From a virus, in IMG/VR virus record IMGVR_UViG_3300010354_000352, positions 1 to 31,270 of that record: 31,270 bases of DNA. One strand, given 5' to 3'. The first letter of the stretch is position 1; each line of letters begins with the position of its first letter. Below are positions 1-29,226 of the stretch, piece after piece. Position numbers and translations under genes: made by a program. A model generated the notes under the pieces. The model was not told the DNA's origin and made no database searches. It saw nothing but the letters and a program-made list of their open reading frames with translations.

Positions 1-540
1 TCGCCTTGATGACCCTGTGCGCCTTGAACGCCCTGCTCACCTTGATGACCTTGTTCACCTTGATGCCCTTGATGACCCTGCTCACCCTGATGACCTTGTT
101 CACCTTGATGCCCTTGAAAACCTTGTTCACCTTGAGTGCCCTGTTCGCCTTGAAAACCTTGTGAACCTTGTTCACCCTGCACACCTTGTGAACCTTGTAC
201 GCCTTGAAAGCCTTGAGATCCTTGCTCGCCCTGTACACCTTGTGCACCTTGTGCACCCTGTGCTCCTTGCGCTCCCTGTACACCTTGGAAACCTTGTGAA
301 CCCTGTTCACCTTGTACGCCTTGCTCTCCTTGATGTCCTTGAAAACCTTGAGATCCTTGCTCACCTTGAAAACCCTGTGAACCTTGCTCGCCCTGTACGC
401 CCTGTTCGCCTTGGAATCCTTGGAAACCTTGTGAACCTTGTTCACCTTGTCGTCCTTGTGAACCCTGTACGCCTTGAAAACCTTGCGCACCTTGTTCACC
501 CTGTACGCCTTGCGAACCCTGAGAACCTTGTGTTCCAGCA
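1..540 (-). repeat. Collagen-like Gly-X-Gln repeat block of the left-edge gene
   Basis: A 9-nt DNA period (GGN-NNN-CAA/CAG on the minus strand, read as ccttg or ccctg every 9 nt on the plus strand) runs from about 540 to the window edge. X is mostly V, A, S, E, F, H or R, and Gln is nearly invariant in the third position. The frame is preserved throughout. Confidence 0.9.
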
Positions 541-845
541 ACAGCGGGTGTAAAAATAGTTACAGTATTGCCAGAAACAGTTACAGTAGAAACACCAGCA
601 GGATCAGCAATAATTTTTAAAGTATCGTTATTTGAAGAAGGCGATATTGATGTTGTGGAATTGGCTACATTTTTAAATACAGCATCATTTAATGCACTAT
701 TTGCGCGCGATTCTGTATTATTAAGACGCGCTTCTACATTAGTACCTTGAACGAAAATTGAATTTGCATTGACTGTTTGGGCAATGACCACTGTATCTAC
801 GGTAACATTACCATAAATTCTTGTATTACCTTGTAATTTTGCCAT
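1..845 (-). CDS. Collagen-like (Gly-X-Gln) tail fiber protein, 5' part, runs off left edge
   Basis: The minus-strand frame from ATG at 843-845 stays open to position 1 (281 full codons, no stop), so this is the 5' part of a longer gene. The first residues are [20 protein letters not shown], a leader I associate with marine T4-like phage fibers. Residues 1-100 form a non-collagenous, beta- and Asn/Thr-rich head. From about residue 103 to the edge the protein is nearly uninterrupted Gly-X-Gln triplets ([12 protein letters not shown] style), like the 2282 aa protein upstream. The role is probably a trimeric virion fiber; attachment by the N-terminal head is inferred. A 43-nt gap separates it from the LamG gene, and an AATAAATA late-promoter-like octamer lies 30 nt upstream of the ATG. 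The Shine-Dalgarno is weak (AAGAA next to the ATG). The plus-strand ORF over the same bases is a repeat shadow. Confidence 0.85.
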
Positions 846-888: not shown

Positions 889-1779
889 TTAAAGCCCATA
901 TCTGGACTTCGTTGCGTTATAATTTTGCAAAACTTCTGCTGCATTTAATGCTCTGCTGTATATACGAACAACGGGAATATCTCCATCAATCAAATTTCCC
1001 TTGATTACATTACCGTCCCATCTTCTCGCAATACGAATGGTTCCGCCTGAACTTGAAGTTCCTGTATAGTTTAGCGAACCATTTTCAGAGCCATTCACAT
1101 AAAATTTTAAAACTGTTCCCGTATATGTTCCAACAAAATGATACCACACATTTGTACTTGCGGCAAACCCTGTTACATTATGCCATGAACCGTCGAAAAA
1201 CCCTGCTGTAATATTATAGTTGCTTGGTGCATTATTTGTTCCAATCGAATAATTTAATTTGTTAACTAAATCAAATTGATTCGTCACAATTGCAGTTACT
1301 TTAGTTCCAATTGCAGCAGTAAATTTTACCCAAGTTTCTACAGTCCAAGTATTTAGATCTGGCACACTGGCAGTTTCAGCATATTCTCCAGCATCATCAT
1401 CAAAATTTAACATACCACCATTTTCGTTTTTAAATGTTGGCGTATTATATAAAGTTGCATCACGATCATTACCACTTAAATCATACCACGTACTGCCACT
1501 TCCTGAATATGAATCATCTTCGGCAGTATCTAAATGTAAAAATAAACTGTCAGAGACAATTGCCTTTGTCACTTCATCAAATTCTTTTGCGACTAACAAT
1601 TTACCATCTCTTGTTTGACGCTTTACCAATCCATTTGATAACGGATTAATCGTTATTTCGTCTAATTCGCTGGCTTTAAACGAAGTTTCACTTTCACTAA
1701 TTGTACTTTGTGAAACTTCATCAAAAGAACCTACACTATAGAGAGTTCCATCACTTTTTAAACTTGATGATCTAGTCAT
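889..1779 (-). CDS. LamG/concanavalin-A-like adhesin of the tail fiber block
   Basis: This is a 296 aa protein. Residues 1-80 contain two imperfect copies of a 'DGxLxVxxxFDEV' motif (SDGTLYSVGSFDEV and RDGKLLVAKEFDEV), as in fiber-associated leader regions. Residues about 82-285 look like a LamG_3-type jelly-roll lectin fold: STWYDLSGNDRDATL, a WTVETWVKF strand, WYHFVGTYTG, KFYVNGSENG, and a C-terminal DIPVVRIYSRALNAAEVLQN followed by YNATKSRYGL. Such domains commonly bind carbohydrate, so a receptor-binding or accessory adhesin role is inferred. It starts 8 nt after the stop of the 2282 aa collagen-like gene and is probably co-transcribed with it; I see no strong Shine-Dalgarno. No signal peptide or membrane segment is visible, consistent with a virion component. 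Fold assignment is strong; the ligand is unknown. Confidence 0.88.
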   Translation of the reverse strand: MTRSSSLKSDGTLYSVGSFDEVSQSTISESETSFKASELDEITINPLSNGLVKRQTRDGKLLVAKEFDEVTKAIVSDSLFLHLDTAEDDSYSGSGSTWYDLSGNDRDATLYNTPTFKNENGGMLNFDDDAGEYAETASVPDLNTWTVETWVKFTAAIGTKVTAIVTNQFDLVNKLNYSIGTNNAPSNYNITAGFFDGSWHNVTGFAASTNVWYHFVGTYTGTVLKFYVNGSENGSLNYTGTSSSGGTIRIARRWDGNVIKGNLIDGDIPVVRIYSRALNAAEVLQNYNATKSRYGL

Positions 1780-1787
1780 AATTTAAC

Positions 1788-4700
1788 TTAGATAAAAATT
1801 GTATCAATACTATCCGAAGAATCATTATAATAAGAATATGCAACCACTGTTCCAGTTGTATTTTTATATTGTACATTTGCAGCAGCAAGTTTGTGCGTTG
1901 ACAAAGTATTGCTTGCTAATGTGTAAGTCAGATTTGCAGTACCACCAAACACACCATTATTATTAAACAACAATTGTGTCGTTGAAGTATTTGCAAGTGG
2001 TACGCTAAATGTTACACTTTGTGGTACTGAATTACCATTACCAGTGATAACAATATTATCACCAGAAATTAAATTGACAGTATCAAGACCAAAGGCAACT
2101 AGTTGATTGACACCATTTACTTGCCAGTTCTTGAACGTACTGTTGAGTTGAATAGTGACGGTGCTATTGCTTTCATCAACAACAGCCATGCCCGAATCAG
2201 CGTCGAACTGAATCGTATTGATACTATTAAATGTATTAACAACAGTATTGTTGCTTGCATAAACTTCTTTAATCGTAATTGGCGCATTGGCTTTATCGTA
2301 TGCATTATTTGCTTGTAGATATGCTTGACCAGCAGCAGTTGTTGCAGTATTCGCTTGACCATAAGCCTGTCCAGCTGCCGTTGTCGCAGTGTTTGCTTGA
2401 CCGTATGCTTGTCCTGCTGCCGTTGTTGCAGTATTGGCTTGATTATAGGCATCAGTGGCTTTAGTTAAAATGCCATCAAACGATTGGAAAGCAGTGCCAT
2501 CATCACTATAACCCCACTTGTCTGTATTCTCATTCCAACGCAAGAAGGTATCAGGTGAATCACCACGATTGACTGTTACACTTGCATTGAGCGATGGTGC
2601 GCCAGTTACATTTGAATTGAGAATAATTTCATTGTCTTCAACAAGTAGCGTTTCAACATTCAACGTCGTACTGTCACCAAGAACTTCAAGATTACCTTGA
2701 ACAATCAAGCTGCCAGTAATTGTGCCACCAGCAATATTAAGTTTTAGATTGGCTTCATTGTAAGCAGCATTGGCTTGCGCGTAAACATTTTCAATTAATG
2801 ATTCAAGATTGGTATTATTTGTACCAACGTATACTACATTTGCAAAAATACCATTTGTTGTGACATTACCTTCAGCGCTGCTAATAAGAGCATCACCAAG
2901 GAAGATTGTGTTATTGCTTAGATAAAGGTCGCGGAATCTTTGTGTATTTGTACCAATATCATAAGTGATGTTTGCTTCTGGTACAATATTTTTAGTTGTA
3001 AGTGTACCAGTAATATTTGCATTATATGTTGTAAATGTATTTGAAGCAAGATTGAATGTTAGGTTAGCGGATCCATCTGGCAAGTTTTGATTATTGAAAA
3101 CAATCTGTGTATTTTGACCAGCAACAGGACCTTGATCGCCCTGCACGCCTTGATAACCTTGTGAACCTTGCTGTCCTTGTGAACCTTGTACGCCTTGGAA
3201 TCCTTGTTCACCTTGATTACCCTGATTACCGAAGTCACCCTGTACACCTTGGAAACCTTGCTCACCTTGTCGACCTTGTGCACCCTGTACACCTTGAGCG
3301 CCTTGTGCACCCTGTACACCTTGGAAGCCCTGAGAGCCTTGTTCGCCCTGTGGACCTTGTGAACCTTGTACACCCTGGAATCCTTGTTCGCCTTGTGCGC
3401 CTTGATCTCCTTGCACACCTTGGAAGCCTTGCTCACCTTGACGTCCTTGATTACCTTGTACACCTTGGAATCCTTGCTCGCCTTGAATACCTTGGAATCC
3501 TTGTTCGCCTTGTGCTCCTTGATCGCCTTGTACGCCTTGGAAGCCCTGCGATCCTTGTTCACCTTGAACTCCCTGTTCACCCTGTACACCTTGGAAACCC
3601 TGTGAACCTTGCTCACCTTGTACGCCTTGATGACCCTGAACACCTTGAGCACCTTGAGCGCCTACTGCGCCCTGTACGCCTTGAAAGCCTTGTGCACCCT
3701 GTTCGCCTTGTACACCTTGATCACCCTGTACACCTTGGAAACCTTGTTCACCTTGTGCGCCTTGGTCACCCTGTACACCTTGGAATCCTTGGTCACCCTG
3801 TACACCTTGGAAACCTTGTGAACCTTGTGCTCCTTGTATGCCTTGGAAGCCCTGAGAACCTTGCTCGCCTTGAGCACCAACTGTACCTTGAACACCTTGT
3901 GAACCTTGTTGACCTTGGAAACCTTGCGATCCCTGTTCACCTTGTACACCTTGGAATCCTTGTTCACCCTGTGGTCCTTGTTCACCCTGTACGCCTTGAT
4001 AACCCTGAGCACCCTGCTCACCTTGGAAACCTTGAGCGCCTTGCTCACCTTGGAAGCCTTGAGAACCTTGTTCGCCTTGAGCACCAACTGTACCTTGAAC
4101 GCCCTGGAATCCCTGTTCACCTTGATAACCTTGGTCACCCTGAACTCCCTGAAATCCTTGTGCACCTTGTTCACCTTGATGACCTTGGAAGCCTTGTGAA
4201 CCTTGCTCACCTTGTACGCCTTGATGACCCTGTTCACCTTGTACGCCTTGATGACCTTGTACGCCCTGTGAACCTTGTGCGCCCTGCACGCCTTGGAAGC
4301 CTTGTGGTCCAGTATCGCCTTGATCACCAGTACGAGCAAATGTAATTAATACATCTTCATCATTAGTGAATGAAGAAGCGCTGCCTGAAACATAAGAGCA
4401 ATTTACTTCAAAGTATGTACTGTGAATTGACAATGAAGAAATTGTAAACAATGCGAAATCATTTGAATCAAACTTATTAGTGATTCTAAAGTGACCCTTG
4501 ATTGTTGACGTTGAGTCATCAATAGTGACTAAGAAATTGTATACGTTTGATGAACTGTCATCAACATAATCAATGTACAATTTGTTTGCAAGTGTTACGT
4601 TTGCATTATTGAGTTTTAAATGTCCAGTGCCTGGATCAGTGTTTGCTGTATCATTATTAAAGGTGTAATCAAATGTAGCGCCACCAAAGTTACCATCACG

Positions 4701-7700
4701 TCCTTGATAACCCTGCTCACCTTGTGTGCCTTGAAATCCCTGTTCACCTTGAGGACCTTGAACGCCTTGTTCACCCTGTTGTCCTTGTGAACCTTGTACA
4801 CCTTGATGACCTTGTGAACCTTGTACACCTTGGAATCCTTGTTCACCTTGGAATCCTTGTTCACCTTGAACACCTTGAAATCCTTGCTCGCCTTGAACGC
4901 CTTGGTGTCCCTGTACACCTTGGAAACCTTGTTCGCCTTGGAAACCTTGAGATCCCTGTTCACCCTGTACGCCTTGGAATCCTTGTTCACCTTGGAATCC
5001 TTGTTCACCTTGGAAACCTTGTTCACCTTGGTGTCCTTGATAACCCTGTTCACCTTGATGTCCTTGATAACCCTGTGCGCCTTGCTCACCTTGGAAACCT
5101 TGCGCGCCCTGTTCACCTTGAGCGCCAACATCACCCTGAACTCCTTGGAATCCTTGTGCACCTTGAACGCCTTGTTCACCTTGATGACCTTGAACGCCTT
5201 GTTCACCTTGTGCACCAACAGCACCTTGAACTCCTTGGAATCCTTGTGCTCCTTGTGCTCCTTGAATTCCTTGAGCACCTTGTGCTCCTTGAGCGCCTTG
5301 TACGCCTTGGAATCCTTGATTACCTTGTGCGCCTATTTCACCTTGTACACCTTGGAATCCTTGTTCACCCTGTTGTCCTTGTGAACCTTGAACGCCTTGA
5401 TTACCTTGTACACCTTGGAATCCTTGTGCGCCTTGTACACCCTGTGATCCTTGCTGACCTTGTGAACCCTGTGCGCCTTGTACACCTTGGAAACCTTGAG
5501 GACCAAGATCACCACGATCGCCAGTACGAGCAAATGTAATTAATACATCATCATTATTGCTGAACGAGGATTCTGCACCTGAAACAAATCCGCAATCCAC
5601 TTCAAAGTAATTATTATGTACTTTAAGTGCAGTGATTGTGTAAAGAACAAAATTATTATCATCAAACTTGCTTGTAAGTCTAAAGTGTCCTTTGATAACT
5701 GATGTTGAATCATCAATTGTGACTAAGAAGTTATATGCATTTGATGTATTATCATCAAGATTATCAATATAAAGTTTTGATGCAAGCGTTAAATCAGAAT
5801 TATTGAATTTTAAGAATCCAGTTCCTGGATCAGTATTAGCAGTGTTGCTAAGAAAGGTGTAATCAAATGTAGCACCACCAAAGTTACCATCGCGTCCTTG
5901 ATAACCTTGTGTACCCTGTACACCTTGAGCGCCTTGTGTACCCTGTACACCTTGACGTCCTTGATGTCCTTGTTCACCTTGTCGACCTTGGAAACCTTGT
6001 GCACCCTGGTCACCTTGGAATCCTTGCGCACCTTGTTCACCTACAGCACCCTGTACACCTTGTGCGCCTTGTTGACCTTGTGATCCTTGACGTCCTTGGA
6101 ATCCTTGTTCACCTTGACGTCCTTGATTACCTTGAATGCCTTGATAACCTTGATTACCTTGAACGCCCTGTTCACCTTGATGACCCTGTTCACCTTGACG
6201 TCCTTGATTACCTTGTACGCCTTGCTCACCTTGACGTCCTTGGAATCCTTGCTCGCCTTGGCGACCTTGAGCGCCTTGTACACCTTGGAAACCCTGCTCG
6301 CCTTGAGCACCTTGTTGACCTTGATGACCTTGTTCGCCTTGGCGACCTTGAGCGCCTTGTACACCCTGCTCGCCCTGGTGTCCTTGGAAACCTTGTTCGC
6401 CTTGGTGTCCTTGGAAACCTTGTTCGCCTTGGTATCCTTGTTCACCTTGTGCGCCCTGTACACCTTGGAAACCTTGCTCGCCTTGACGTCCTTGATTACC
6501 TTGTACGCCTTGAAAACCTTGAGCGCCCTGCTCGCCTTGATGACCTTGATAACCTTGATACCCTTGTTCGCCTTGGAAACCCTGTTCACCTTGGTGTCCT
6601 TGATAACCCTGATAACCCTGTTCACCTTGATGACCCTGCTCGCCTTGATAACCTTGAGCGCCCTGCGCTCCTTGTACACCTTGATGACCCTGTACACCTT
6701 GGAAACCTTGCTCACCTTGATAACCTTGAGCACCTTGTTCGCCTTGAACTCCTTGGTGTCCCTGTACACCTTGTGCGCCTTGAACGCCCTGTTCGCCTTG
6801 TACGCCTTGGAAACCTTGCTCACCCTTATCGCCACGATCACCAGTTCTTGTAAATGTAATTAATACATTTGCGCCAGCAGCAAAAGAAGTGACACCTGTA
6901 GTGTGAGCAATTGGAACAGCAAAATAATTTAATTCATGAAGATGATTTCCATTAATGCTGAAATAAGCAAACTCACTAATGTTTGCTGTATTGGAAACTT
7001 TAAATGTGCCTTTGATTGTTGACGTTGAATCATCAATTGTTTGAAGATAATTGAATACATTTGCTGTATTCATATCTTCAAAGTCAATATACAACGTTGT
7101 AGCCGTTGCAAGATTTGTGCTATCAAATTTTAAATTTGCGCTGCCTGGATCAGTGTTTGCTGTATTGGTTAGATACACATACTCAAATGTTGCACCACCA
7201 AATTCTCCAATTTCACCCTTGGAACCTGTTGTACCTTGAACACCTTGGTGCCCTTGTACGCCTTGATGACCTTGAACGCCTTGATCACCCTGTACACCTT
7301 GAAACCCTTGTGAACCTTGTTCGCCTTGTACGCCTTGATGACCTTGAACACCTTGGAAGCCCTGTGAACCCTGTTCGCCTTGAACTCCTTGGAATCCTTG
7401 AGCACCTTGTTCACCTTGATGACCTTGTGAACCCTGAACACCTTGTTCGCCTTGATGACCTTGGAATCCTTGAGCGCCTTGCTCACCTTGAACACCTTGT
7501 TCGCCTTGATGACCTTGGAATCCTTGAGCGCCTTGTTCACCTTGGTGTCCTTGTGCGCCTTGAACGCCTTGTTCACCCTGTCGTCCTTGATCGCCCTGTA
7601 CACCCTGGAATCCTTGTGCGCCTTGTTCACCTTGTACACCTTGGAAACCTTGTGAACCTTGTTCACCTTGGTGTCCTTGAAATCCTTGTGCACCTTGTTC

Positions 7701-8636
7701 ACCTTGTACGCCTTGATGCCCCTGAACACCTTGATGACCTTGAACACCTTGAAAACCTTGAGCGCCTTGTTCACCTTGTACGCCTTGATGACCTTGAACG
7801 CCCTGCGAACCTTGTCGTCCTTGAGAACCTTGCGAACCTTGTTCACCTTGAACACCCTGTGCTCCTTGAATTCCTTGAGCGCCTTGAACGCCTTGGAAAC
7901 CTTGTTCGCCCTGAACACCTTGAGCTCCTTGACGTCCCTGAGTGCCCTGTACGCCTTGAGATCCTTGATAACCTTGAAAACCTTGTGAACCTTGCTCACC
8001 CTGCACACCCTGTTCGCCTTGTACACCTTGCGCACCTTGACGACCCTGTGAGCCTTGAGCGCCCTGTACACCTTGATGACCTTGAATGCCTTGAGAACCT
8101 TGTGCGCCTTGAATACCCTGTGAACCTTGAATGCCCTGCTCACCTTGTACACCTTGGAAGCCTTGTGCACCTTGAATGCCCTGTTCGCCCTTTTGTCCTT
8201 TTTCACCTTGGCGACCTTGTGCACCTTGATAACCTTGATCGCCTTGTGGACCTTGATCGCCAGCTAAACCTGTGCCACCAACTTCACCTTTTTGTCCTTT
8301 GTCGCCTTGCGCACCAACTGTACCTTGCACACCTTGGTGACCTTGTACGCCTTGAAAACCCTGTGAACCTTGTTGACCTTGTGAACCCTGTGCGCCCTGC
8401 ACGCCCTGTGAACCTTGTGCGCCTTGAACACCTTGATAACCTTGTTCGCCAAATTCGCCTTTTTGACCTTTCTCGCCTTGCGCACCTTGTGCACCTTGAA
8501 CACCTTGTGGTCCTTGTGGACCTGCAAAGGCAGCAACTGTTTGATCCCAAGTCACTCCATTCCATTGATAAGTGACATCGCCAACAGTAAATAGTTGATT
8601 AAGCGTAGGTGAATCTGGAAAATTAGGTATTGACAT
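1788..8636 (-). CDS. Giant collagen-like tail fiber protein with three inserted globular domains
   Basis: The protein is 2282 aa. Residues 1-38 form a short head ([20 protein letters not shown]) typical of phage fiber leaders. Four collagen-like blocks follow, at about residues 39-480, 599-917, 1039-1315 and 1437-1836, totalling about 1438 residues or 479 triplets. They are almost all Gly-X-Gln with X = A, V, F, E, H, S, Y, R, D, N or I, and little proline. They are separated by three homologous domains of about 120 residues beginning GGATF and ending ITF(A/T)RTGD. The C-terminal 445 residues are a fiber module with [21 protein letters not shown], an [20 protein letters not shown] segment and QAN repeats, paralogous to the C-terminal half of the 982 aa protein upstream. 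It lies 5 nt after that gene. It is probably a very long homotrimeric fiber; the trimer is inferred from the collagen pattern. The frame is intact throughout, with no indel scars. Stop is TAA. Confidence 0.9.
2311..2436 (-). repeat. Three tandem 42-bp repeats (14-aa units, [13 protein letters not shown])
   Basis: Three near-identical 42-bp units at 2311-2352, 2353-2394 and 2395-2436 encode 14-residue repeats ([14 protein letters not shown] type) in the C-terminal part of the 2282 aa protein, about residues 2067-2108. The alanine/glutamine-rich pattern suggests a coiled-coil stalk after the collagen region. Confidence 0.85.
3129..4328 (-). repeat. Collagen-like block 4 of the 2282 aa protein
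   Basis: About 133 consecutive Gly-X-Y triplets, residues 1437-1836. Y is Gln in nearly all. Common units are [12 protein letters not shown] and GSQGFQ. The DNA has a strict 9-nt period without frame loss. It is followed by the non-collagenous C-terminal module starting [15 protein letters not shown]. Confidence 0.92.
4329..4691 (-). other. Inserted globular domain 3 (GGATF...ARTGD module)
   Basis: About 121 non-collagenous residues between blocks 3 and 4. It is closely similar to domain 2: both share [32 protein letters not shown] and [11 protein letters not shown]. The acidic, beta-rich pattern resembles small globular modules that interrupt phage collagen-like fibers. Function is unknown; a receptor-contact or trimer-registration role is inference. 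Confidence 0.8.
4692..5522 (-). repeat. Collagen-like block 3 of the 2282 aa protein
   Basis: About 92 Gly-X-Y triplets, residues 1039-1315, almost entirely Gly-X-Gln. There are a few non-Gln breaks such as GEIGAQ, GAVGAQ and GDVGAQ, and it ends in GRDGNFGG. Confidence 0.92.
5523..5885 (-). other. Inserted globular domain 2 (GGATF...ARTGD module)
   Basis: About 121 residues between blocks 2 and 3, homologous to domain 3 and more distantly to domain 1. It shares [36 protein letters not shown] and [13 protein letters not shown]. The flanks GRDGNFGG and ARTGD merge directly into the collagen register. Confidence 0.8.
5886..6842 (-). repeat. Collagen-like block 2 of the 2282 aa protein
   Basis: About 106 Gly-X-Y triplets, residues 599-917, dominated by [15 protein letters not shown] and GRQ. 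This block is richest in X = His, Tyr and Arg. Confidence 0.92.
6843..7196 (-). other. Inserted globular domain 1 (diverged GGATF module)
   Basis: About 118 residues between blocks 1 and 2. It aligns by eye with domains 2 and 3 ([54 protein letters not shown]) but is clearly more diverged from both than they are from each other. Confidence 0.8.
7197..8522 (-). repeat. Collagen-like block 1 of the 2282 aa protein
   Basis: About 147 Gly-X-Y triplets, residues 39-480. Its N-terminal end has charged triplets ([33 protein letters not shown]) that become sparse further in, where Gly-X-Gln takes over. The last triplets are [11 protein letters not shown]. Confidence 0.92.
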
Positions 8637-8641
8637 TTAGA

Positions 8642-11590
8642 TTACACTGGCATAGAAATTCTTGAAATATTTAGGGCATTTACAGCGAATACTGGATCGA
8701 ACAATAAGCGCATCTGTCCTGCAGAAATGTCAGAGCCAAATGAACCCAAGTATGATCCCGTAGTGACTGTACCATATTCTGTCATATAAGCAGTTGTGCC
8801 ATTATGTAACAAAATTATTTCAGTTGCTTGATAATTTGCACCACTCTTAATTTGAATCAAGTATTTTACAGTTCGATATTCACTAATTGGTAGAATATCA
8901 ACAACAGTTTGTGCTGCTAATGAGGTTGCTCCTGTATTAGCAGAAAGAGTTATTGTATTGACTTTATATTCTGTCGCATTAATCGTCAATCTGCCATTTG
9001 ATTCAATTAATGTACTTGATACATTTAACTTTGTTTCATTTTGTAATACAGAAATATTTCCTGTAAATGTATCACCAGCACGATTTGCTTTTATTGAATT
9101 TAAATTATTTGCAGCAGCAGCAGAAGAAGCAGTGTTAGCATCATTAAGCGTTAAATCACTTGATGTATTAACAACTGGCGTTGGTGTGAGCGATACCCAT
9201 TGCGCACTTGATCCATCATTATAATAGATGTAGAACTTACCAGTATTTGCTCTCCACCACAATGAAACATTTGAATTGGCTGAAGTAGGTGCAACATCAG
9301 AGACATATAGTTCTGTATTTGCGTAAACGCCACCGCCAGCAAGTTTAGGATTATCAAACAATAAAACAACTTTATTATTTGATGGATCATCTGTACCAGT
9401 AATTGTTAAATTAGAACTATTTGCAGATTTGAAATCAAGCGTTCTTCTTGAACCAACAGCAGAACTATCAACTTGTACTGGTGTTACATTTGCAGTATTT
9501 GCTGCACTATATGCAGCATTTGCTTGATCGTAGGCTGCATTTGCTTGATCGTGAGCATCACCAGCAAATATTAATGCGTTGTTTGCAGTATCAAAGGCAC
9601 CATTTGCTTGATTATAAGCATCAGCTGCTTGTTGATTTCCTGCTAATAAAGTATCAAATGAAGTGAATGCTGTCCCATCGTCAGTCCATTCCCAATGATT
9701 TGTGCTTTCGTTCCAACGAATTGAAACGTTTGGTTCAGAACCGCGATTGACAGTCAATAAAGCATTTAAATTCGGTACATCAGTTTCAATTAAATTTGAA
9801 TTGAGGATGATCTCATTATCTTCAACAAGCAATGTTTGAACATTAAGTGTTGTACTATCACCAAGAACCGAAAGATTGCCTGTAACTGTCAAATCACCAC
9901 TAATTGTTGATAGTGCAATGTTTGAAACAGAAGTAATACGACCCTTATCGTCAACAGTGAATGATGCTATATTCGAACTGCTTCCATATGTTCCAGCACC
10001 AACACCAGTTGAAGAAAGCGCAAATCCAATGTTAGCATTACCAGAAACAGCACCTGCACCAGCAGTAACACTTACTGTTACATCGCCAGTGTTAACAAAA
10101 TTAAGTTGTTGTTTACTTAATGTTGAACCGCCATTTGCTGAAACGCGAACGGTATTTGCTGCAAGATTCGAAGTCGGTGATAATACATTATTGACATAAG
10201 TTCGTAGAGCATCAGTTTGCTCTACAGCATCTGTCGCAAGCTCTTCTACAGTAGTAATATATTGATCTAATTCGTATACAGTATTTGCTGTTGCTGCTAA
10301 TATATTGCTGTTACTGTCAAGAGCATCATATAACTGAACAACACCAGTTTGTGTTGTGTTTGCTTCACGAATTGTAATATTTGCAACAACAACATTACTT
10401 GTGTTTGATGTGCTAACTGATAATAGAGAACCTTCAATTGTTTCGACTTTTAAATTTGCACGTTCAGTAGTATCAGTAACCCAAGTTTGAACATTATATC
10501 CAGCAAGATTAATTGCATTTGCAGTTAAACTGCTGATAGCAATTTCGTCATTGGTTGTTGTAGATACTTGCGTATTGCCAAGAAACAAAGTTGTTCCTGA
10601 CAAATACAAATCGCGGAAACGTTTTTCTGGAGTGCCAAGATCGTATGTAACGTCTAGATTAGGAACAATATTTTGCGATATGATTGTGGCGGCAACGTTC
10701 AAGTTGCCAGTCATCGTATCGCCAGCCTTTAATACACGAGTATTTGCATCATCATAAGCATTATTGGCTTGTGTATAAGCAGCATTTGCTTGATCAAAGG
10801 AACTATTAGCCTGATCATATGCTGTGTTTGCTTGATCGTAGGCTGTATTTGCTTGATCAAATGCTGCAGCAGAATTTACATCATCACCTTTGGCACCTTG
10901 TATACCTTGTGCACCAATATCACCTTTTTCGCCCTTTTGTCCTTGTACACCTTGCGCACCTTGTGCACCATCTAAACCAACATATCCACTTTCACCTTGA
11001 ACACCTTGCGCACCAGTAACACCTTGTGCGCCCGTATCACCTTTGTCACCTTTTGCACCTGGTACAAAAGAATCATCACCTTTGGCGCCTTGTGAACCAG
11101 CATCGCCCTTTTCGCCTTTGTCGCCAGTTGTTCCAGCTTCACCTTGAACACCCTGTGCGCCAATATCACCTTGTGCGCCAGTTTCGCCTTTTTCTCCAGC
11201 AGCACCTTGCACACCTTGTGCGCCAGCTGCACCTTGTTCGCCCACAGCACCTTGCGCGCCAACAGAACCTTCAGCACCTTGCACGCCTTGTGCGCCAGTA
11301 TCTCCTTTTGCACCAGCAACACCTTGATCACCTTGAACGCCTTGCGCGCCAGTATTTCCTTTTGTGCCAGCAACACCTTGATCGCCTTGAACGCCTTGTG
11401 CGCCAATACCAGCAAATGTACCTGGTAAACCTTGAGCGCCTTGAACGCCCTGTGCGCCTTGCACACCTTGAGAACCTTGTGTACCTTGAACACCTTGACT
11501 GCCTTGTGGACCAGATGCGCCAGCAATCGGTGTTCCGCTACCAAGAACAACCGAGCCAATAGCGTTTTTATTTGTTAAATTTATTTTCAT
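8642..11590 (-). CDS. Collagen-like tail fiber protein (982 aa)
   Basis: The protein has a short head (MKINLTNKNAIGSVVLGSGT). Residues about 24-240 are collagen-like triplets, mixed Gly-X-Gln and charged (GDKGEKGD, GAKGDKGD). Residues 240-285 are six tandem 7-residue AYDQANT units. Next comes a fiber module with [16 protein letters not shown] and [13 protein letters not shown], a segment of RWNESTNHWEWTDDGTAF type, a second QAN-repeat patch, and a beta-rich C-terminal domain of about 250 residues. The middle is paralogous to the C-terminal module of the 2282 aa protein, but the last domain is different. The ATG at 11588-11590 overlaps the upstream TGA by 4 nt (ATGA), with AGGTAA as Shine-Dalgarno; the next gene starts 5 nt downstream. 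It is inferred to be a virion fiber; which receptor-binding end it uses is unknown. Confidence 0.88.
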   Translation of the reverse strand: MKINLTNKNAIGSVVLGSGTPIAGASGPQGSQGVQGTQGSQGVQGAQGVQGAQGLPGTFAGIGAQGVQGDQGVAGTKGNTGAQGVQGDQGVAGAKGDTGAQGVQGAEGSVGAQGAVGEQGAAGAQGVQGAAGEKGETGAQGDIGAQGVQGEAGTTGDKGEKGDAGSQGAKGDDSFVPGAKGDKGDTGAQGVTGAQGVQGESGYVGLDGAQGAQGVQGQKGEKGDIGAQGIQGAKGDDVNSAAAFDQANTAYDQANTAYDQANSSFDQANAAYTQANNAYDDANTRVLKAGDTMTGNLNVAATIISQNIVPNLDVTYDLGTPEKRFRDLYLSGTTLFLGNTQVSTTTNDEIAISSLTANAINLAGYNVQTWVTDTTERANLKVETIEGSLLSVSTSNTSNVVVANITIREANTTQTGVVQLYDALDSNSNILAATANTVYELDQYITTVEELATDAVEQTDALRTYVNNVLSPTSNLAANTVRVSANGGSTLSKQQLNFVNTGDVTVSVTAGAGAVSGNANIGFALSSTGVGAGTYGSSSNIASFTVDDKGRITSVSNIALSTISGDLTVTGNLSVLGDSTTLNVQTLLVEDNEIILNSNLIETDVPNLNALLTVNRGSEPNVSIRWNESTNHWEWTDDGTAFTSFDTLLAGNQQAADAYNQANGAFDTANNALIFAGDAHDQANAAYDQANAAYSAANTANVTPVQVDSSAVGSRRTLDFKSANSSNLTITGTDDPSNNKVVLLFDNPKLAGGGVYANTELYVSDVAPTSANSNVSLWWRANTGKFYIYYNDGSSAQWVSLTPTPVVNTSSDLTLNDANTASSAAAANNLNSIKANRAGDTFTGNISVLQNETKLNVSSTLIESNGRLTINATEYKVNTITLSANTGATSLAAQTVVDILPISEYRTVKYLIQIKSGANYQATEIILLHNGTTAYMTEYGTVTTGSYLGSFGSDISAGQMRLLFDPVFAVNALNISRISMPV
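10746..10871 (-). repeat. Six tandem 21-bp repeats encoding AYDQANT heptads
   Basis: Six 21-bp units start at 10746, 10767, 10788, 10809, 10830 and 10851 and encode seven-residue AYDQANT-type units (residues about 240-282 of the 982 aa protein). The strict heptad suggests an alpha-helical coiled-coil stalk directly after the collagen block. A degenerate second cluster of QAN units lies near 9495-9640. Confidence 0.85.
10880..11522 (-). repeat. Collagen-like block of the 982 aa fiber
   Basis: About 71 Gly-X-Y triplets, residues about 24-237. They are more varied than in the 2282 aa protein, with Ala, Asp, Glu and Lys in X or Y and KGD/KGE triplets of the kind known to stabilise bacterial collagen-like helices through salt bridges. 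Confidence 0.88.
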
Positions 11591-11919
11591 CTGGTTACCT
11601 GAGGTGTGACTGTTATTACGCCTTCCATAATTCGAATTGTCACATCCGAGGTATCCATCATCTTAATATCATAGACATAACGACCAGGATTGATATTAGC
11701 AGTCACAGCGGAGTTCATTGTTATGCTAAGATTACCATTAGGTCCGTCAAGAATAGAAATAACTAAATTTGCGGTTGGATTTGTTGAGTAGTAGGACTTA
11801 CGAAGTTGACCTGTGAATGTATAACCTGCGACGCTCATAGGAGTGCCGTCGTCATTTTTCAAGTCCATATTTGTTTGAAAATTTGTTCCCTGATCAACAA
11901 ATAAGTCTATGTAAACCAT
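11587..11919 (-). CDS. Small BppU-N-like phage baseplate/fiber-associated beta protein
   Basis: The protein is 110 aa from the ATG at 11917-11919. The frame can extend one codon to a TTG, but the ATG overlaps the upstream stop (TGATG), the usual coupled arrangement here. It shows the pattern I know from small phage proteins resembling the N-terminal domain of baseplate upper proteins: FVDQGTNFQTNMDLKNDDGT, AGYTFTGQLRKSY, GNLSITMNS, NPGRYVYDIKM and a C-terminal EGVITVTPQVTR. All are beta strands and no membrane segment is visible. It sits between a putative fiber chaperone and a collagen-like fiber, so it may be an adaptor or anchoring domain for the fiber; this is inference. The stop TGA overlaps the next ATG by 4 nt. 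Confidence 0.8.
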   Translation of the reverse strand: MVYIDLFVDQGTNFQTNMDLKNDDGTPMSVAGYTFTGQLRKSYYSTNPTANLVISILDGPNGNLSITMNSAVTANINPGRYVYDIKMMDTSDVTIRIMEGVITVTPQVTR

Positions 11920-12425
11920 CAATTATCTCGTAGATACTCGTACGTTAGTGTCTTCAGTGTGTCAAAATCAGAACAATTCACTATCCTTGTATCTGACGGC
12001 ATATCTCTTAATTTTTGTTTTTTGGCGGCAATCGTTGTTTTTAAAGCAAGATCACCTAATTCGTCTGCTTTTTGATAATCTATGTCAAGTTGTTCTAAGT
12101 CTGCACTTCTCATTGATCTGACATAATTCGCATGACATTCTTTAGCCTTTTCCATATTTATGGTAAATTGAATTGGAGAAGAAACGTCGTCAAAATTGCC
12201 TTCTAGGGCAACCCAATAGCCGACATTTGCGCTGTTTGAAAGTGCGATTTTATCAAATTCAGCTTTATCTGTTGGATTTTCTAAATCCACAACTTTATAT
12301 TGAGAATTTTCAGGAATATCTTTAGCAATAACCTGTTCCAAAGGAAGAACGCCTGTAGGCATTAAAATAGCAAAAGAACCACCATTATTCTTCAAATTAT
12401 CGTTGGTATAGACAACTAATTTCAT
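11919..12425 (-). CDS. Putative tail fiber assembly chaperone-like protein
   Basis: The protein is 168 aa with no membrane segment. The N-terminal half is mixed alpha/beta and starts MKLVVYTNDNLKNNGGSFAI. The C-terminal half is strongly helical and charged, with the segment LALKTTIAAKKQKLRDMPSD near residues 127-146; a 'KKQxLRDxP' element of this sort is common in phage tail-fiber assembly proteins. Location directly before fiber genes agrees with a chaperone role. The homology is weak, and a structural role cannot be excluded. Start choice is secure: AGGAG at 12435-12439 lies 9 nt before the ATG, and an AATAAATA octamer lies 29 nt upstream, so this is probably the first gene of a late transcript. 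The stop TGA overlaps the next ATG by 1 nt. Confidence 0.6.
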   Translation of the reverse strand: MKLVVYTNDNLKNNGGSFAILMPTGVLPLEQVIAKDIPENSQYKVVDLENPTDKAEFDKIALSNSANVGYWVALEGNFDDVSSPIQFTINMEKAKECHANYVRSMRSADLEQLDIDYQKADELGDLALKTTIAAKKQKLRDMPSDTRIVNCSDFDTLKTLTYEYLRDN

Positions 12426-12479: not shown

Positions 12480-13865
12480 TTAACTGGTAGGTTTACTGCC
12501 GACCACAATAACGCTTGCATCTTGTGATATGAAGTATCGGGTTGCACGATTTCCTGAACTATAATTCCCAGACAATCCATAAGCAACTTCTGCATAACTG
12601 GTGGTTTTATCGATCAGTTGCAAATGACCACTTCCAAGATAATAGTATGTAGATTCAGCAGAATTTGGTTTTCTGGCACAGCCCATGACTGCAAAGTTTG
12701 CGTCTGCCATTGAAGTCGCAAAATTAAGTCTGTAAACATAAACTGTAACAGGGTAAGCGCGTCTTGGTATACCATCTTGAGTGTAAGAAGATATAGTTAT
12801 ACTTGAAATATTGTTACTCGATAAAATAGTGGGACTAAAACCAATAAACCCTCCGCTAAAGTTTGCATAAGCAGAAACGAGCTCTGGAACTATCGTATCT
12901 TCTCCAATTGTTCCTGTATAACCAGGGTCGCCTTTTTCGCCCTTTTCTGAAGTAGCAGCATTTGTGCCAGCGTCACCTAAAACACCCTTATCTCCTTTTG
13001 CTCCTTTTTCGCCCTTTGTTGCGCCGATTGACTCGCCCTTTTGTCCCTTTTCACCATCATCACCAATTTGCCCATAACCAAATTCACCTTTTTCCCCCTT
13101 TTCACCTTTTGTTCCTCCAATCACTTCGCCTGTTTCGCCAATTTCTCCTTGAAAACCCTGTGCGCCTTGCACACCTTGACTTCCAGAAACGCCAATATTA
13201 CCTTGAACACCTTGTGCACCCTGACTACCTGGCTGTCCTTTTTGACCTTTCTGACCTTTAATTCCTTTATTGCCATCATCTGGTAAAGAAATTTCGACTT
13301 CAACGTCAGTAACTTTAGTATTAGATGTGTTTGCAGCAGCAACTACCCCAACTATACTGTTGGCTAAAAAATTCAAACCACGATCAATACCTTGAAACAC
13401 ACCCTCAACATATAATGGTGTTTTTGATGGGTAAGCGTCACCTTGAATCCAACAAATACCAGAATCGTCAGTACCAACAACTAAATTAGTTGTGATGGTA
13501 TTTTGAGCATTGATAATTGTATTAGATACTAAATTTTTTGTTTGAATAGTATTTGCTACATCAAAAATAACTTTACTATTTGCAAATCTTGCATCATCAC
13601 CATGGTAATATGCTTCATCATTTACAATTTTTGTTTTTGTTGTAAAATTATTTTCGACATTGGCATTGGCAACCACACTCAATGTAGTACCTGTTTGTTT
13701 ATCAATATAAAGAGAACCATTTTTAATATTTAAAACTGGTCCTGAATCTTTATAATAATTTCCATTACGAAGATCATTTACTGAATTTGCAAGATCATTC
13801 GTTGCACCACGCCAGTCGCTGAACGTGTTGTTTAATGTTATGTGTGATATGTTTGCATTAGCCAT
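12480..13865 (-). CDS. Collagen-like fiber protein, paralogue B (461 aa)
   Basis: Residues 1-196 are a non-collagenous head beginning MANANISHITLNNTFSDWRG, with NDLANSVNDLRNG and an IITTNL-like strand region. Residues about 197-320 are collagen-like and rich in charged triplets (GIKGQKGQKGQPG, GTKGEKGEKGEFG, GATKGEKGAKGDKG). Residues 320-461 form a C-terminal beta domain containing FAVMGCARKPNSAE, YLGSGHLQL and a terminal SQDASVIVVG. Head and C-terminal domain are paralogous to the 470 aa protein immediately upstream, while the collagen parts differ in length register and composition. It starts 10 nt after that gene with a weak Shine-Dalgarno. It is inferred to be a short trimeric fiber; the C-terminal domain is the likely receptor-binding or trimerising end. 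Confidence 0.87.
   Translation of the reverse strand: MANANISHITLNNTFSDWRGATNDLANSVNDLRNGNYYKDSGPVLNIKNGSLYIDKQTGTTLSVVANANVENNFTTKTKIVNDEAYYHGDDARFANSKVIFDVANTIQTKNLVSNTIINAQNTITTNLVVGTDDSGICWIQGDAYPSKTPLYVEGVFQGIDRGLNFLANSIVGVVAAANTSNTKVTDVEVEISLPDDGNKGIKGQKGQKGQPGSQGAQGVQGNIGVSGSQGVQGAQGFQGEIGETGEVIGGTKGEKGEKGEFGYGQIGDDGEKGQKGESIGATKGEKGAKGDKGVLGDAGTNAATSEKGEKGDPGYTGTIGEDTIVPELVSAYANFSGGFIGFSPTILSSNNISSITISSYTQDGIPRRAYPVTVYVYRLNFATSMADANFAVMGCARKPNSAESTYYYLGSGHLQLIDKTTSYAEVAYGLSGNYSSGNRATRYFISQDASVIVVGSKPTS
12905..13275 (-). repeat. Collagen-like block of the 461 aa fiber (KGE/KGD type)
   Basis: About 40 Gly-X-Y triplets with several short interruptions (GEVIGGTKGE, GESIGATKGE, GTNAATSEKGE). 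It is lysine/glutamate rich, unlike the Gly-X-Gln blocks downstream. Confidence 0.85.
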
Positions 13866-13875
13866 TTATATAATC

Positions 13876-15288
13876 TTATTCTCTCACAACGATAACGTCA
13901 GCTTGTGATGGTATGTAGTAGGTGAGTTCGCGATCAGCTGCACCAGCAATCGCAAAAGCAACGACAACATAATTTGCATTTCGACTTAAAAGTTGTAAGT
14001 GACCCGATGCACTATACCAGTAATTTTTAGGATCACTTCCATAAACATATAACATTTCAGTATTGTTTGGTTTTCTTGCAGTACCAGCAACGGCATAGTT
14101 TTGATCAGTCATTGGAGTTATAAAATTAATTCGAATTTGAATCAGTGGTGTTACTGAATTCCAGAACCCACCATCATAATTTTTATTTTCCGTAACAGTG
14201 ATGCTTGAAACGTTGTTTGAACCATTAATTGTTATTGGGCTTGCTGGAATAATATCTCCTGGTAACATTGCTGAACCAGTAAATGAAACATAGGCTTTTA
14301 CAAGCTGAGTTGCGCCAGAAGGTGTTCCCTTATCGCCCTTTGAACCTTGAGCGCCTTGATCACCTTTTGCGCCTTTGTCGCCTTGTACACCAGCAGTGCC
14401 TTGACTTCCTTTGTCGCCTTTATCGCCTTTATCGCCAATATCGCCACTGCCACCAATTTCACCTTTTTGACCTTTATCACCTTGGAAACCTTTATCACCA
14501 GCACCTTGTTCGCCTTTATCGCCCTTTAATCCCGTACCACCAGTTCCAGGTTCACCCTTACCGCCTTGAACACCTTGACTTCCTTGTACACCTTGAAAAC
14601 CCTGTGCGCCTTGCACGCCTTGAAAGCCTTGATTGCCTTGAACACCCTGCGCGCCAACATCTCCAGGTGCACCCTTATCACCTTTAATGCCAGGATTACC
14701 AGCAGTACTTGGCGCATCAAATACAATATCAATAATTTTTGTATTTGAAACATTTGGTGTTACTGTAATGGCACCAATACCAGTTCCGCGAAAGTTGATA
14801 CCTCTTCTTGTAGCAACAAATGTACCATCTTGATACACTGGTGTTCTTGATGGTGCTGGGTCACCATTAATAACACATTCTCCATTAGAGTAATCAGAAC
14901 CAACAGTTAGATCTGTTGTGATGGTATTTTGTCCAGTAATTAAAGTATTAGAAACTAAATTTTTTGTGAAGATTGTATTTGAAACTTGTACATATGCAGC
15001 AGAATTTGTAAAACGCGCATTAGCCCCATTTACTGTAATGTCATCAGTTGATACAAATGTCTTAACTGTTAATTGATTTGCAACAGAAGCATCAGAAGCA
15101 ACAAATAGTGTCGTGCCAGTTGGTTTGGTAATGGTCACATTACCAGATCCGATAATTAAATCTCCGTTGTCTTTGACGTATGCGCCATTACGAAGATCAT
15201 TAACTGAATTAGCGAGCACATTTGTGATGACTCGCCATTCATTAAATGTATTGTTTAATTGTAATTGTGCTATATTTGCATTAGCCAT
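13876..15288 (-). CDS. Collagen-like fiber protein, paralogue A (470 aa)
   Basis: The head (residues 1-195) begins MANANIAQLQLNNTFNEWRV and contains NVLANSVNDLRNG, TITTDLTVGSD and a TPVYQDGTFVATRRGINF segment. Residues about 196-322 are collagen-like: first Gly-X-Gln style ([12 protein letters not shown]), then charged (GLKGDKGEQG, GDKGDKGDKGSQ). Residues 322-470 are a beta-rich end domain with YAVAGTARKPNNTEMLYVYG, ASGHLQLL and SQADVIVV. It is paralogous to the next gene downstream, giving a tandem duplication. The ATG at 15286-15288 overlaps the stop of the upstream 75 aa gene by 8 nt (ATGGCTAA), and a GGTAGAG-like Shine-Dalgarno lies inside that gene. Virion fiber role is inferred. Confidence 0.87.
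   Translation of the reverse strand: MANANIAQLQLNNTFNEWRVITNVLANSVNDLRNGAYVKDNGDLIIGSGNVTITKPTGTTLFVASDASVANQLTVKTFVSTDDITVNGANARFTNSAAYVQVSNTIFTKNLVSNTLITGQNTITTDLTVGSDYSNGECVINGDPAPSRTPVYQDGTFVATRRGINFRGTGIGAITVTPNVSNTKIIDIVFDAPSTAGNPGIKGDKGAPGDVGAQGVQGNQGFQGVQGAQGFQGVQGSQGVQGGKGEPGTGGTGLKGDKGEQGAGDKGFQGDKGQKGEIGGSGDIGDKGDKGDKGSQGTAGVQGDKGAKGDQGAQGSKGDKGTPSGATQLVKAYVSFTGSAMLPGDIIPASPITINGSNNVSSITVTENKNYDGGFWNSVTPLIQIRINFITPMTDQNYAVAGTARKPNNTEMLYVYGSDPKNYWYSASGHLQLLSRNANYVVVAFAIAGAADRELTYYIPSQADVIVVRE
14325..14700 (-). repeat. Collagen-like block of the 470 aa fiber
   Basis: About 41 Gly-X-Y triplets with one or two breaks (GEQGAGDKG). The first third is Gly-X-Gln and the remainder is GDKG/GQKG. 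It ends at GDKGTPSG before the C-terminal domain. Confidence 0.85.
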
Positions 15289-18967: not shown

Positions 18968-18973
18968 CTCCTA
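18968..18973 (-). promoter_or_regulatory. Shine-Dalgarno TAGGAG overlapping an amber stop
   Basis: On the minus strand, the TAG stop of the 1026 aa gene is the first part of TAGGAG, 6 nt before the next ATG (TAGGAGTATAAAATG). It supports re-initiation at 18961 rather than amber readthrough. Confidence 0.75.
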
Positions 18974-21900
18974 CTCTATTGACGCCAAAAAGTCGTCATT
19001 AGTGATATCTGCGGTCAAAAAGCCATCAAATGTGTCAACAACAATACCATATTTTTCTTTTTCGCGTAAATTATCTTCGTATAGAATTGCTGTATCTGAT
19101 GCGAGAGCTTCTATTTGTGTTAATGATGTGTATATTTCTAATGCCTCAATTCTCTTCTCGAGTGTTCCTATGTCGCGCATTGTGAAGCGTTTATTTTCGA
19201 CATATTGTAGTGCAATTTCAGCAACATTTGCTGCGTAAGCAGGAGAATTGATCAGGTATAATGTCATACCATCGTCTTGATCTGCTGGTGGGATTGGATT
19301 AATCGCTGAAGTGCCTGTTCGAATTTTAAATTCTTTATCTTTTGTCAAAATAAGTTTGTCAATTCTAGGTAGATAAAATTGATATGACAATTCCATTACT
19401 TCAGATGGTTTTTGCACCTTTCCGCCAAAATAAGTTTCAGAAGGCTGACCGACGGTTCTTGTTGGTCTAAAATCAACGCAGTCACGAAGATTGTAATAAC
19501 CACCACTTTGACCATAATAAATTGGAATTGCTCCAGAAGCATATTCTGTTGCTGGGTATGAGTCTACATTAAAGTAACCAGAGGATGCGCCAGCTGAGTG
19601 GTCATAATATTTAATAAGGGCAACGATTTGACCTTTTGGTGCATTATAGCCAGGTTTTAATACAAGGCTTGCATGATCATAAAAATTATCGCGCTGACCA
19701 CCATCAAGATAATAGTGTTTTGTGATATCAATTGCATTATCAACATTTGGTGCATAATTAATATCACCAGAGTCAAAAACTTTAATTAATTGAACAACAT
19801 CTGGAACATAAAGGCTCATTGGGACGCCAGGTTCAGTTTCAATTGGACCTGCACTAGTAAACCAAACATGTCCACGCACAGCATCAATTTTAACAGAAGC
19901 GCCTATAGGTGCGCCAACTGATGTGCCATTACTTGGTGTGTCTGTTGCTGTTAGTACTGTATTTGATGTATTACCAACAACAGTTTTACGACGGCGCGCA
20001 ACAGTTTCTGTTTGCGTATCATCAACTTTTACAGTCATTAAAATATCAGCAACAATTGCTGCACTTGTACCTGTGTATATTGTTATCGATTTTTCATTAG
20101 TTTGGTAAATGCCAGAAGTTCCTGTTGTCAAGTCAACAATGCTACCATTTGAATATACTGTGGATCCAGCATTACTGCGAATAATAACCATTAAATCTGT
20201 ATTTGCTTGAGTATCAGATACAAAACTGCCTGTTCTACCAAAAGTGAACGATTCTCCCGTTGAGAGATGTCCGCCGCCATCTGATAAGGTTATTTGACCA
20301 TTGCTTGTGAAAGTTAAATTTGTTAAAACTTTTCTATGGTAATAGTCTGCGTTTGTGATCGATCCGTTTGCTAGGTAATTTTGACCTAAACGGAAAATCA
20401 TTGTATTTAAATTCGTATCAGTTAGATAAGTATTGCTTGTAGCATCTTTGCTGTCTGAATGAATATCCATTGTAGCATAAACGCTGCGTATAGTATTCCA
20501 ATTAGAATCTGCTGCTGAAGGCGCATATGCTAATGAATCTAAATCTTTAATAGCAAAATCTAAACGAGCTGTGCCACTTGGTGTTGCGGTAAATGGAGTG
20601 CTCACCGTCGCAACTTTGGTACTACCAACATAATTAATAATTTCTCGACTATCGCCAGTAGAATTAACAGTAACAGTTACATTTGTATATGCGTTATCAG
20701 TAGATGAAAAGTCTGTTGGTAAGGTAATAGTTGTTGATGTGCCACTGACTACCGTAAATGATAATGGTTGTACATTGGCGTCACAAATATATGTTTTATA
20801 AACTGTTGCTGACTCGCGATCAAAATTGCGAATTTTAGCAGTACCAATACGAGTATTTGCGTATGTTCCAAAAGAATATTTGTCAACATTTGCGCTATTA
20901 ACACAGTGCAAATCAACAGTTGGTAATGCAAAATTAAAGAAACCTTGATTACTTGATTGAACATTAGCAACGTACAAATAATTGCCATACTCAATGTTCA
21001 AATCATAATCGTTTGATGTTTGTCTATCGCGCGCTTTTCTATGAAGAATTTGTGTTGGACCAACAGTTTCAAATTCAAATCCTTTAACGTATGCTTTTCC
21101 TGGATCCAAATTGATAAAATAAGTATTACCAGTTGCGTCTTTCGTATTAGCAGATAAAGTTGCTCTAAAGTTTCTAACTGTGTAATCGCCAGATTCATCG
21201 AAAGTTCTACGAGCAAGAGTTTTTTCAAGTTCAGAATAAATTGGATATTTGACTTGTTTAGTGATTATGCCATTTTCGACGCGCAATAACTCGAAGAAAC
21301 GAGAATCATCGGTACTTGTTAATGATCTTGTTGTCAGTCTTAATGAAAACTGATAGCGATGAGCGCCAGGTGCACCTTCGTTTGAAGCGCCGAGTGCTGG
21401 ATCTAATAAAGTTGAATCTTGAGATTCATCAACAACATCAGTTTCAATTTGCAAACCGATCTTAGCCGATGGGGTTATACCGTAAGGATCTAGAGTAATT
21501 GTTTGCGGTAACACTTTAACGAAGAAACCACTGGCGTAAAATACACCTTCTTCGATACTTACTGTCGTTCCTGTCCCAACAGCACCAGTTAAAATTGTTT
21601 GAGCATAATACGTTGTAGCGCCCACAGTACGCAGCGTTTCATTATTTGTAAATGCACCGCGCATCATCTTCACCATGAGAGTTGGTGAACTTCCTGGAAC
21701 TGAGGAAGTATATGCCGCAATCACACGACCACGTTTAACCTCAGCCTGGCTATTTTGTATAACCAATTTGCCTACAAAATTATCAAGATCAATATCTTCA
21801 TTATTATAGGTTGGAAATAGTTTTACATAAGATACATTATTGTCGATGGTTAATTGACCACCAACAACTGGACTACCATCTTTGAAAATATGGTCACCAA

Positions 21901-28830: not shown

Positions 28831-29226
28831 CTATCTTAATCTTTCTAGAAAGAGACTTATTGTTACGGGTTCCAAACGATTTACGATGAAAAATTCAATT
28901 GTTATGTTATAACCCTGATTATCATAATCTGATTGAACATAAACATTACGAAGTTTCACGCGAGGCTCATAGTTAGCAATTGTCAATTCAATTTCTTTTT
29001 GTAGTAAAATGCCAGTTTCCGCAGTCATTGGCTCAAACAATAAACGGCGAACATTCGACCCGATAGAGGGATTGAATGGTTTTTCAAAATAGTTCAAAAG
29101 AATTAAATTTTTAACCGCAGTCACAATTGCACGATCGCCAATTTTTCGATTGACGTCCTTGGTAACTGGATTGGCGCCGAAATTTAAGTCCAAATCAGCA
29201 TATGTTCTTGATACGTTTGATGCCAT
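28831..29226 (-). CDS. gp25: Baseplate wedge subunit / sheath initiator gp25 (GPW/gp25 family)
   Basis: The protein is 131 aa, the same size as T4 gp25 (about 132). It shows the family pattern: DLDLNFGANPVTKDVNRKIG at the N-terminus, AIVTAVKNLILLNYFEKPFN, GSNVRRLLFEPMT, and the conserved EPR motif at residues 87-89 (ANYEPRVKLRNVYVQ), followed by a C-terminal beta strand ending LFLERLR. In T4-like phages gp25 joins wedge to sheath and starts sheath assembly. It is the first gene after a 36-nt gap with a late-promoter-like octamer, and is followed by gp6 after 10 nt. I see no strong Shine-Dalgarno. Stop is TAG. Confidence 0.96.
   Translation of the reverse strand: MASNVSRTYADLDLNFGANPVTKDVNRKIGDRAIVTAVKNLILLNYFEKPFNPSIGSNVRRLLFEPMTAETGILLQKEIELTIANYEPRVKLRNVYVQSDYDNQGYNITIEFFIVNRLEPVTISLFLERLR

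Follow-up and report, generated by a model that had tools for sequence, protein, structure and literature searches.

In pelagimyophages the host-recognition cluster directly follows the gene for VrlC, and their structural operon encodes collagen repeats as well as concanavalin A domains (PMC7029224). Lake actinophages carry collagen-like proteins within a hypervariable island (PMC10202952), and the EPclA-D proteins (EPclPs) encoded by prophages of pathogenic E. coli are side-fibre-type proteins with collagen blocks in which Gln is favoured at position Y of the Gly-X-Y triplet (PMC3368898). Here we describe a giant collagen-like fibre gene of the virus record IMGVR_UViG_3300010354_000352 from IMG/VR (positions 1 to 31,270; this whole stretch of 31,270 nt is referred to as the window). 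The locus has the site after VrlC, several fibre genes, collagen and concanavalin A-like domains and hypervariability in common with the pelagimyophage cluster. However, the available portion of the pelagimyophage account (PMC7029224) only lists collagen repeats; the length, the Gly-X-Gln make-up and the interrupting domain described below are absent from it. The window fibre resembles the EPclPs in its blocks and in the preference for Gln at Y, but EPclPs carry Pro in 48% of the X positions, many charged and no aromatic residues, and their longest block has 322 amino acids (aa; PMC3368898), whereas we found Pro in 1.9% of the triplets, 113 aromatic X residues and a block of up to 444 residues, so that the composition is not that of an EPclP. 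EPclPs are further characterized by the flanking domains PfN, Pf2 and PfC, and a Pfam search of the window fibre, which did not target these three, showed Collagen alone. We read the gene as the shaft of a long, probably homotrimeric collagen fibre on the tail or baseplate of a T4-like aquatic phage, likely with an exchangeable lectin as its tip, and assign this reading a probability of about 0.68.

The fibre is encoded by one intact, uninterrupted open reading frame (ORF) on the minus strand, in which four collagen blocks hold a total of 484 Gly-X-Y triplets (1452 residues). Pfam Collagen (PF01391) matched it over 18 stretches with 745 bits, above the curated cut-off of 27.2, and its PHROG matches are tail fibre families. 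The original prediction, made from the letters alone, of a phage collagen-like fibre with four long blocks in a 2282-aa frame is thus well supported, also by the site of the gene after baseplate genes and VrlC. The layout of the gene is as follows.

1788-8636, minus strand: giant collagen-like fibre gene, 2282 aa (ORF, Pfam Collagen, PHROG)
8523-8636, minus strand: N-terminal segment, residues 1-38, presumed virion-attachment end; 74% identity to the relative L126
7191-8522, minus strand: collagen block 1, residues 39-482; 148 triplets, 132 of them Gly-X-Gln
6843-7190, minus strand: interrupting beta-rich domain, copy 1
5871-6842, minus strand: collagen block 2, residues 599-922; 108 triplets, 102 of them Gly-X-Gln
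5523-5870, minus strand: interrupting beta-rich domain, copy 2; AlphaFold2 mean predicted local distance difference test (pLDDT) 93
4677-5522, minus strand: collagen block 3, residues 1039-1320; 94 triplets, 86 of them Gly-X-Gln
4329-4676, minus strand: interrupting beta-rich domain, copy 3
3123-4328, minus strand: collagen block 4, residues 1437-1838; 134 triplets, 128 of them Gly-X-Gln
1791-3122, minus strand: C-terminal region, 444 aa, Ala/Gln/Asn-rich repeats; 82-87% identity in relatives

In the proposed fibre, the short N-terminus would anchor the protein to the virion, and four Gly-X-Gln rods of ~129, 94, 82 and 117 nm, if fully helical, would alternate with three beta-rich domains, possible joints or sites of registration. 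The C-terminal region would close the shaft, a LamG lectin at the distal end would serve as a swappable receptor-binding tip, and the long rods may widen the reach for the capture of a sparse host. The rod of about 400 nm that had been proposed originally is correct in its arithmetic (~420 nm when fully triple-helical, at 0.29 nm per residue) but not as a single rod, as three folded domains split it into four.

The composition of the blocks is highly uniform. Gln occupies position Y in 448 of the 484 triplets (92.6%), far above chance expectation; the remaining Y residues are V, K, F, A, T, I, R, D or L. Pro is found in nine triplets (1.9%), at X only and never at Y. The near-constant Gln and the rarity of proline had both been recognized before, but the count of about 479 Gly-X-Gln triplets given with them approximates the total of all triplets. 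The commonest X residues are V (89), E (89), A (65), F (63), S (36) and H (32), and the net charge of the blocks is -84; Lys and Arg together number only 28, eight of them Lys. Gly is encoded by GGT (275), GGC (127), GGA (82) and GGG (4), and Gln by CAA (370) and CAG (89). Since Gly and Gln stay constant while their codons vary, the pattern is suggestive of selection at the protein level, not of a recent DNA expansion. Within 1788-8636, X residues succeed one another from triplet to triplet in a strongly non-random order (mutual information z = 25): V followed by V was observed 0 times (16.5 expected), E by E 2 times (16.5), F by F 0 times (8.3) and V by F 0 times (11.7), while F followed by V (40 versus 11.7) and E by F (28 versus 11.7) are enriched. 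Tandem duplication may be a partial cause. Identical X neighbours are likewise depleted in many unrelated fibres.

A repeat array of this size could have been misassembled, as the original prediction had cautioned. Repeats did interrupt the assembly in the next collagen gene (3-845), within which the contig terminates, and the related locus L124 is frameshifted in its last collagen block, which could reflect faulty sequencing or a truly broken gene. However, the longest exact repeat in the window measures 47 bp and none reaches 51 bp or more, and intact frames of nearly equal length occur in separate IMG/VR contigs (L125 and L129 with 2266 aa, L126 with 2272 aa). On both grounds the length of the fibre is credible and an artefact extremely unlikely. 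Two single-triplet indels and a handful of substitutions separate the fibres of L126 and L129.

The relatives also demonstrate how the rods are rearranged. The C-terminus of the fibre and the downstream gene order are common to the window, L126 and L123, and the N-terminus to the window and L126. In the full-length relatives (2266-2272 aa) both ends and the neighbours are kept, and rod lengths and domain order are altered: the window has 148/108/94/134 triplets with three domains, L126 has 74/53/91/145/83 with four. Domain 1 of the window is nearest to domain 4 of L126 (72%) and domain 2 to domain 3 (81%). We do not claim a length constraint from the constant total of 2266-2282 aa despite differing blocks, as only two independent full-length lineages are represented.

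Pro, hydroxyproline and charge pairs are the usual explanation for the stability of collagen triple helices. All three are nearly absent here, with Pro at 1.9% and hardly any Lys-Gly-Glu pairs, and prolyl hydroxylation at Y is ruled out as a stabilizer by the lack of any Pro at this position. The question of how such a helix is held together, raised from the sequence at the outset, was therefore a fair one and is now sharper. In a collagen peptide, an axial pair of Gln at Y and Phe at X' raised the melting point by ~2.1°C, and a crystal structure at 1.385 Å displayed an NH-pi contact; the stability was indifferent to salt and pH (PMC9599227). In the window fibre every aromatic X residue (113 of 113) is preceded by Gln. 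Among virus ORFs, aromatic X residues are over-represented at two places relative to Gln: within one and the same triplet (odds ratio 4.2) and in the next triplet (3.3, Wilcoxon p = 0.0014). Offset -1 is intermediate (2.0), and offsets -2, +2 and +3 give values of 0.8-1.2. The signal is no more than suggestive, as axial and lateral effects are inseparable in this test, many offsets and residue classes were compared and tandem duplication renders the triplets non-independent. Gln-aromatic contacts are thus a plausible stabilizer of the fibre, and the triple helix would rely on Gln at nearly every Y, in part through axial contacts of this kind. At X, most virus Gly-X-Gln fibres carry T, L, N, V or I, so these contacts cannot suffice as an explanation on their own. 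Only tentatively, and with more doubt than conviction, we suggest a distinct collagen chemistry of aquatic phages: Gln at Y might replace Pro, hydroxyproline and salt bridges, interchain contacts of the Gln amide with aromatic and aliphatic residues might support rods of hundreds of nm, and the unclassified beta-rich domain, apparently common to giant viruses of eukaryotes, might set joints or register.

The near lack of Pro and charge pairs could also mean that the blocks are no triple helix but a polyproline-II assembly of another kind, or a flexible tether with partial disorder. Host-guest studies rank Phe and Val at X as poor helix formers, which would fit this alternative. Non-twisting polyproline-II helices are moreover known from the long tail fibre of phage S16 and from antifreeze proteins (PMC11869133). 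We nevertheless regard such an assembly as unlikely, given that Gly recurs strictly at every third residue across 484 triplets in blocks that stay in register, as in collagen, and that the Gln at Y is conserved while its codons vary. Polyglycine-II bundles, by comparison, consist of short glycine-rich runs folded back on themselves.

The three interruptions of 116 aa are paralogues with 48-70% identity. AlphaFold2 modelled the domain with confidence (pLDDT 93) as a beta-rich fold that includes a single helix, and a profile built from the three copies gave 134 matches (70 distinct) in 47 of the loci gathered. A Pfam search with the whole fibre returned Collagen only and nothing for the interruptions, and NCBIfam and PHROG searches with the domain alone gave no match. 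Foldseek found no significant match in the PDB (best E 0.045), and the best VIA-align hit (Z 6.1, root-mean-square deviation 3.3 over 94 residues) lies in the common range among unrelated rows, although a missing PDB match does not establish a new fold. In a library of predicted viral structures we obtained 47 matches at E ≤0.001, the named ones mostly 'collagen triple helix repeat' proteins. Matches filed under giant viruses (Marseillevirus LCMAC102, Indivirus and Klosneuvirus) reached TM 0.88-0.95. What is new here is that, according to the predicted models, the interruptions represent one beta-rich domain whose fold is clearly matched by phage and giant-virus proteins annotated as collagen. 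This domain is unclassified and apparently common to phages and giant viruses, to which our results may serve as a pointer.

We found that proline-free Gly-X-Gln fibres are widespread. Runs of at least 31 consecutive Gly-X-Gln codons occur in at least 120 IMG/VR stretches, and the true Gly-X-Gln reading frame was confirmed in 120 of 120 of the matches listed. Larger collagen ORFs include L037 (626 triplets), L016 (619), L012 (594), L120 (553) and L093 (522), and the longest pure Gly-X-Gln run, in L068, comprises 370 triplets. The window fibre is consequently a typical representative of a class of long phage fibres that is common yet poorly documented, and the exceptional length and composition that had been ascribed to it are not supported. 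The same 31-triplet pattern was found in 79 stretches of 84,980 prokaryote genomes, with Paenibacillus and other Bacillota contributing many. Like the window fibre, the bacterial Gly-X-Gln collagens (Paenibacillus, Rossellomorea and others) have long Gly-X-Gln runs, but they are rich in Pro: the median share of Pro-containing triplets is 36% in bacteria, with pure Gly-Gln-Gln runs excluded, versus 0.9% in viruses (Mann-Whitney p = 4e-20, an optimistic value, since kin loci were retained). In these collections the proline-free Gly-X-Gln form is characteristic of viruses, and the window fibre is one example. Pro-poor Gly-X-Gln runs were also seen in L174, L176, L177 and L215, contigs binned as bacterial metagenome-assembled genomes, one of which (L177) also carries the interrupting domain; these are probably virus contigs in bacterial bins. 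The 735-kb uncultured phage LR756501 has very long proline-free collagens like those described here, with the interrupting domain nearby (tblastn). Its collagens differ from the window fibre in that Y is Ser and never Gln; adjacent genes in this phage (L317) hold 730, 278 and 121 proline-free Gly-X-Ser triplets, mostly GTS. A tblastn search of the phage collection with a collagen block gave no matches, which is expected from the low-complexity filter and hence uninformative. No account of a Gly-X-Gln collagen class was found in the literature searched, whose coverage was limited. A large natural class that is nearly devoid of the usual stabilizers and, needing no hydroxylation, can be expressed in E. 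coli makes alternative modes of helix support directly testable.

The gene at 889-1779 begins 8 bp after the fibre gene and matches LamG/concanavalin A-like (PF13385) with 70.8 bits (curated cut-off 27.6). A scan of virus contigs with its protein gave no relatives, short patterns being unconserved, and the relatives were located by synteny. Compared with L129, the core of the protein is only 15-28% identical in 40-column windows and the first 120 columns 50-62%, next to conserved neighbours (fibre C-terminus 82%, gp6 72%, N-terminus of the next fibre 85%). A hypervariable core of this kind beside conserved genes fits a receptor-binding module that is being replaced. Among loci outside this lineage, a collagen fibre gene immediately precedes 5 of 21 LamG genes, compared with 26 of 1504 other ORFs (Fisher p = 4e-5). 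A rapidly changing LamG lectin gene that directly follows the fibre, in an order repeated in five loci outside the lineage, is the second new observation and suggests that its product is probably the exchangeable receptor-binding tip of the window fibre. Alternatively, the product could be an independent structural or enzymatic protein. It is encoded as a separate polypeptide, LamG genes are present elsewhere too, and no protein fusing LamG and collagen was seen in the loci gathered, so this possibility retains appreciable weight. It is the less probable of the two in view of the 8-bp gap, the kept order, the hypervariable core and the five further loci, as well as the occurrence of the interrupting domain in a phage protein that bears the name concanavalin A-like, as judged from its predicted structure (rank 7). 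An annotated virion structural protein of phage S-PM2 ends C-terminally in LamG domains, which are fused there to other domains, and the alignment over the N-terminus of the window LamG protein is not meaningful. At L051:8432-10581 (reverse-strand coordinates) three tandem LamG genes directly follow a fibre gene with 418 collagen triplets, which is like a cassette of alternative tips. If the LamG protein is the tip, the locus would hint at how phages of dilute waters make very long host-catching fibres with exchangeable lectin tips.

Five genes of the window bear collagen sequences (3-845, 1788-8636, 8642-11590, 12480-13865 and 13876-15288). Upstream of the fibre, on the same strand, lie genes for gp25-, gp6- and gp8-like baseplate proteins and a VrlC homologue. 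The best cultured match of the latter is the putative VrlC of Pelagibacter phage Mosig (35% identity), and the gp6-like protein is matched best in Methylophilales phage Melnitz (38%). The neighbouring features are listed below.

3-845, minus strand: second Gly-X-Gln fibre gene, clipped by the contig end; counterparts in relatives have 1602-1675 aa and 307-352 triplets
889-1779, minus strand: LamG/concanavalin-like lectin gene, proposed distal receptor-binding tip, 8 bp past the fibre gene
8642-11590, minus strand: 982-aa fibre with a mixed collagen stretch of 69 triplets
11587-11922, minus strand: 111-aa protein like the PHROG family 'L-shaped tail fiber protein assembly', possible fibre chaperone
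12480-13865, minus strand: 461-aa collagen-containing fibre-like protein
13876-15288, minus strand: 470-aa collagen-containing fibre-like protein
18971-22051, minus strand: VrlC-like baseplate protein, ahead of the host-recognition cluster
22062-23645, minus strand: gp8-like baseplate wedge
26757-28820, minus strand: gp6-like baseplate wedge
28831-29226, minus strand: gp25-like baseplate wedge

The fibre gene thus occupies the location right after the baseplate genes and VrlC that is expected of a fibre of a T4-like host-recognition cluster. The placement on the tail draws solely on gene order and PHROG names, and the fibre might instead sit elsewhere on the virion, as a neck fibre, a whisker or a capsid decoration. 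We judge this very unlikely, as the gene directly follows baseplate genes and VrlC and lies amid other fibre genes and a possible fibre chaperone. Besides the limits of the aromatic-residue test given above, three points weigh against the reading as a tail or baseplate fibre with a lectin tip: AlphaFold2 performed poorly on the C-terminal region (pLDDT 38) and gave no confident structure for it, no comparable Gly-X-Gln fibre was found in the sampled stretches of the cultured relatives Melnitz, Sf-CH1b, ACG-2014h and HTVC010P, and 16 of the 21 LamG genes outside the lineage lie away from collagen fibres. At the far end of the window, the 652-aa protein at 29263-31221 shows an endolysin-type region (phrog_894), a sub-threshold match to Peptidase_M15_3 and Ala-rich repeats near position 31000.

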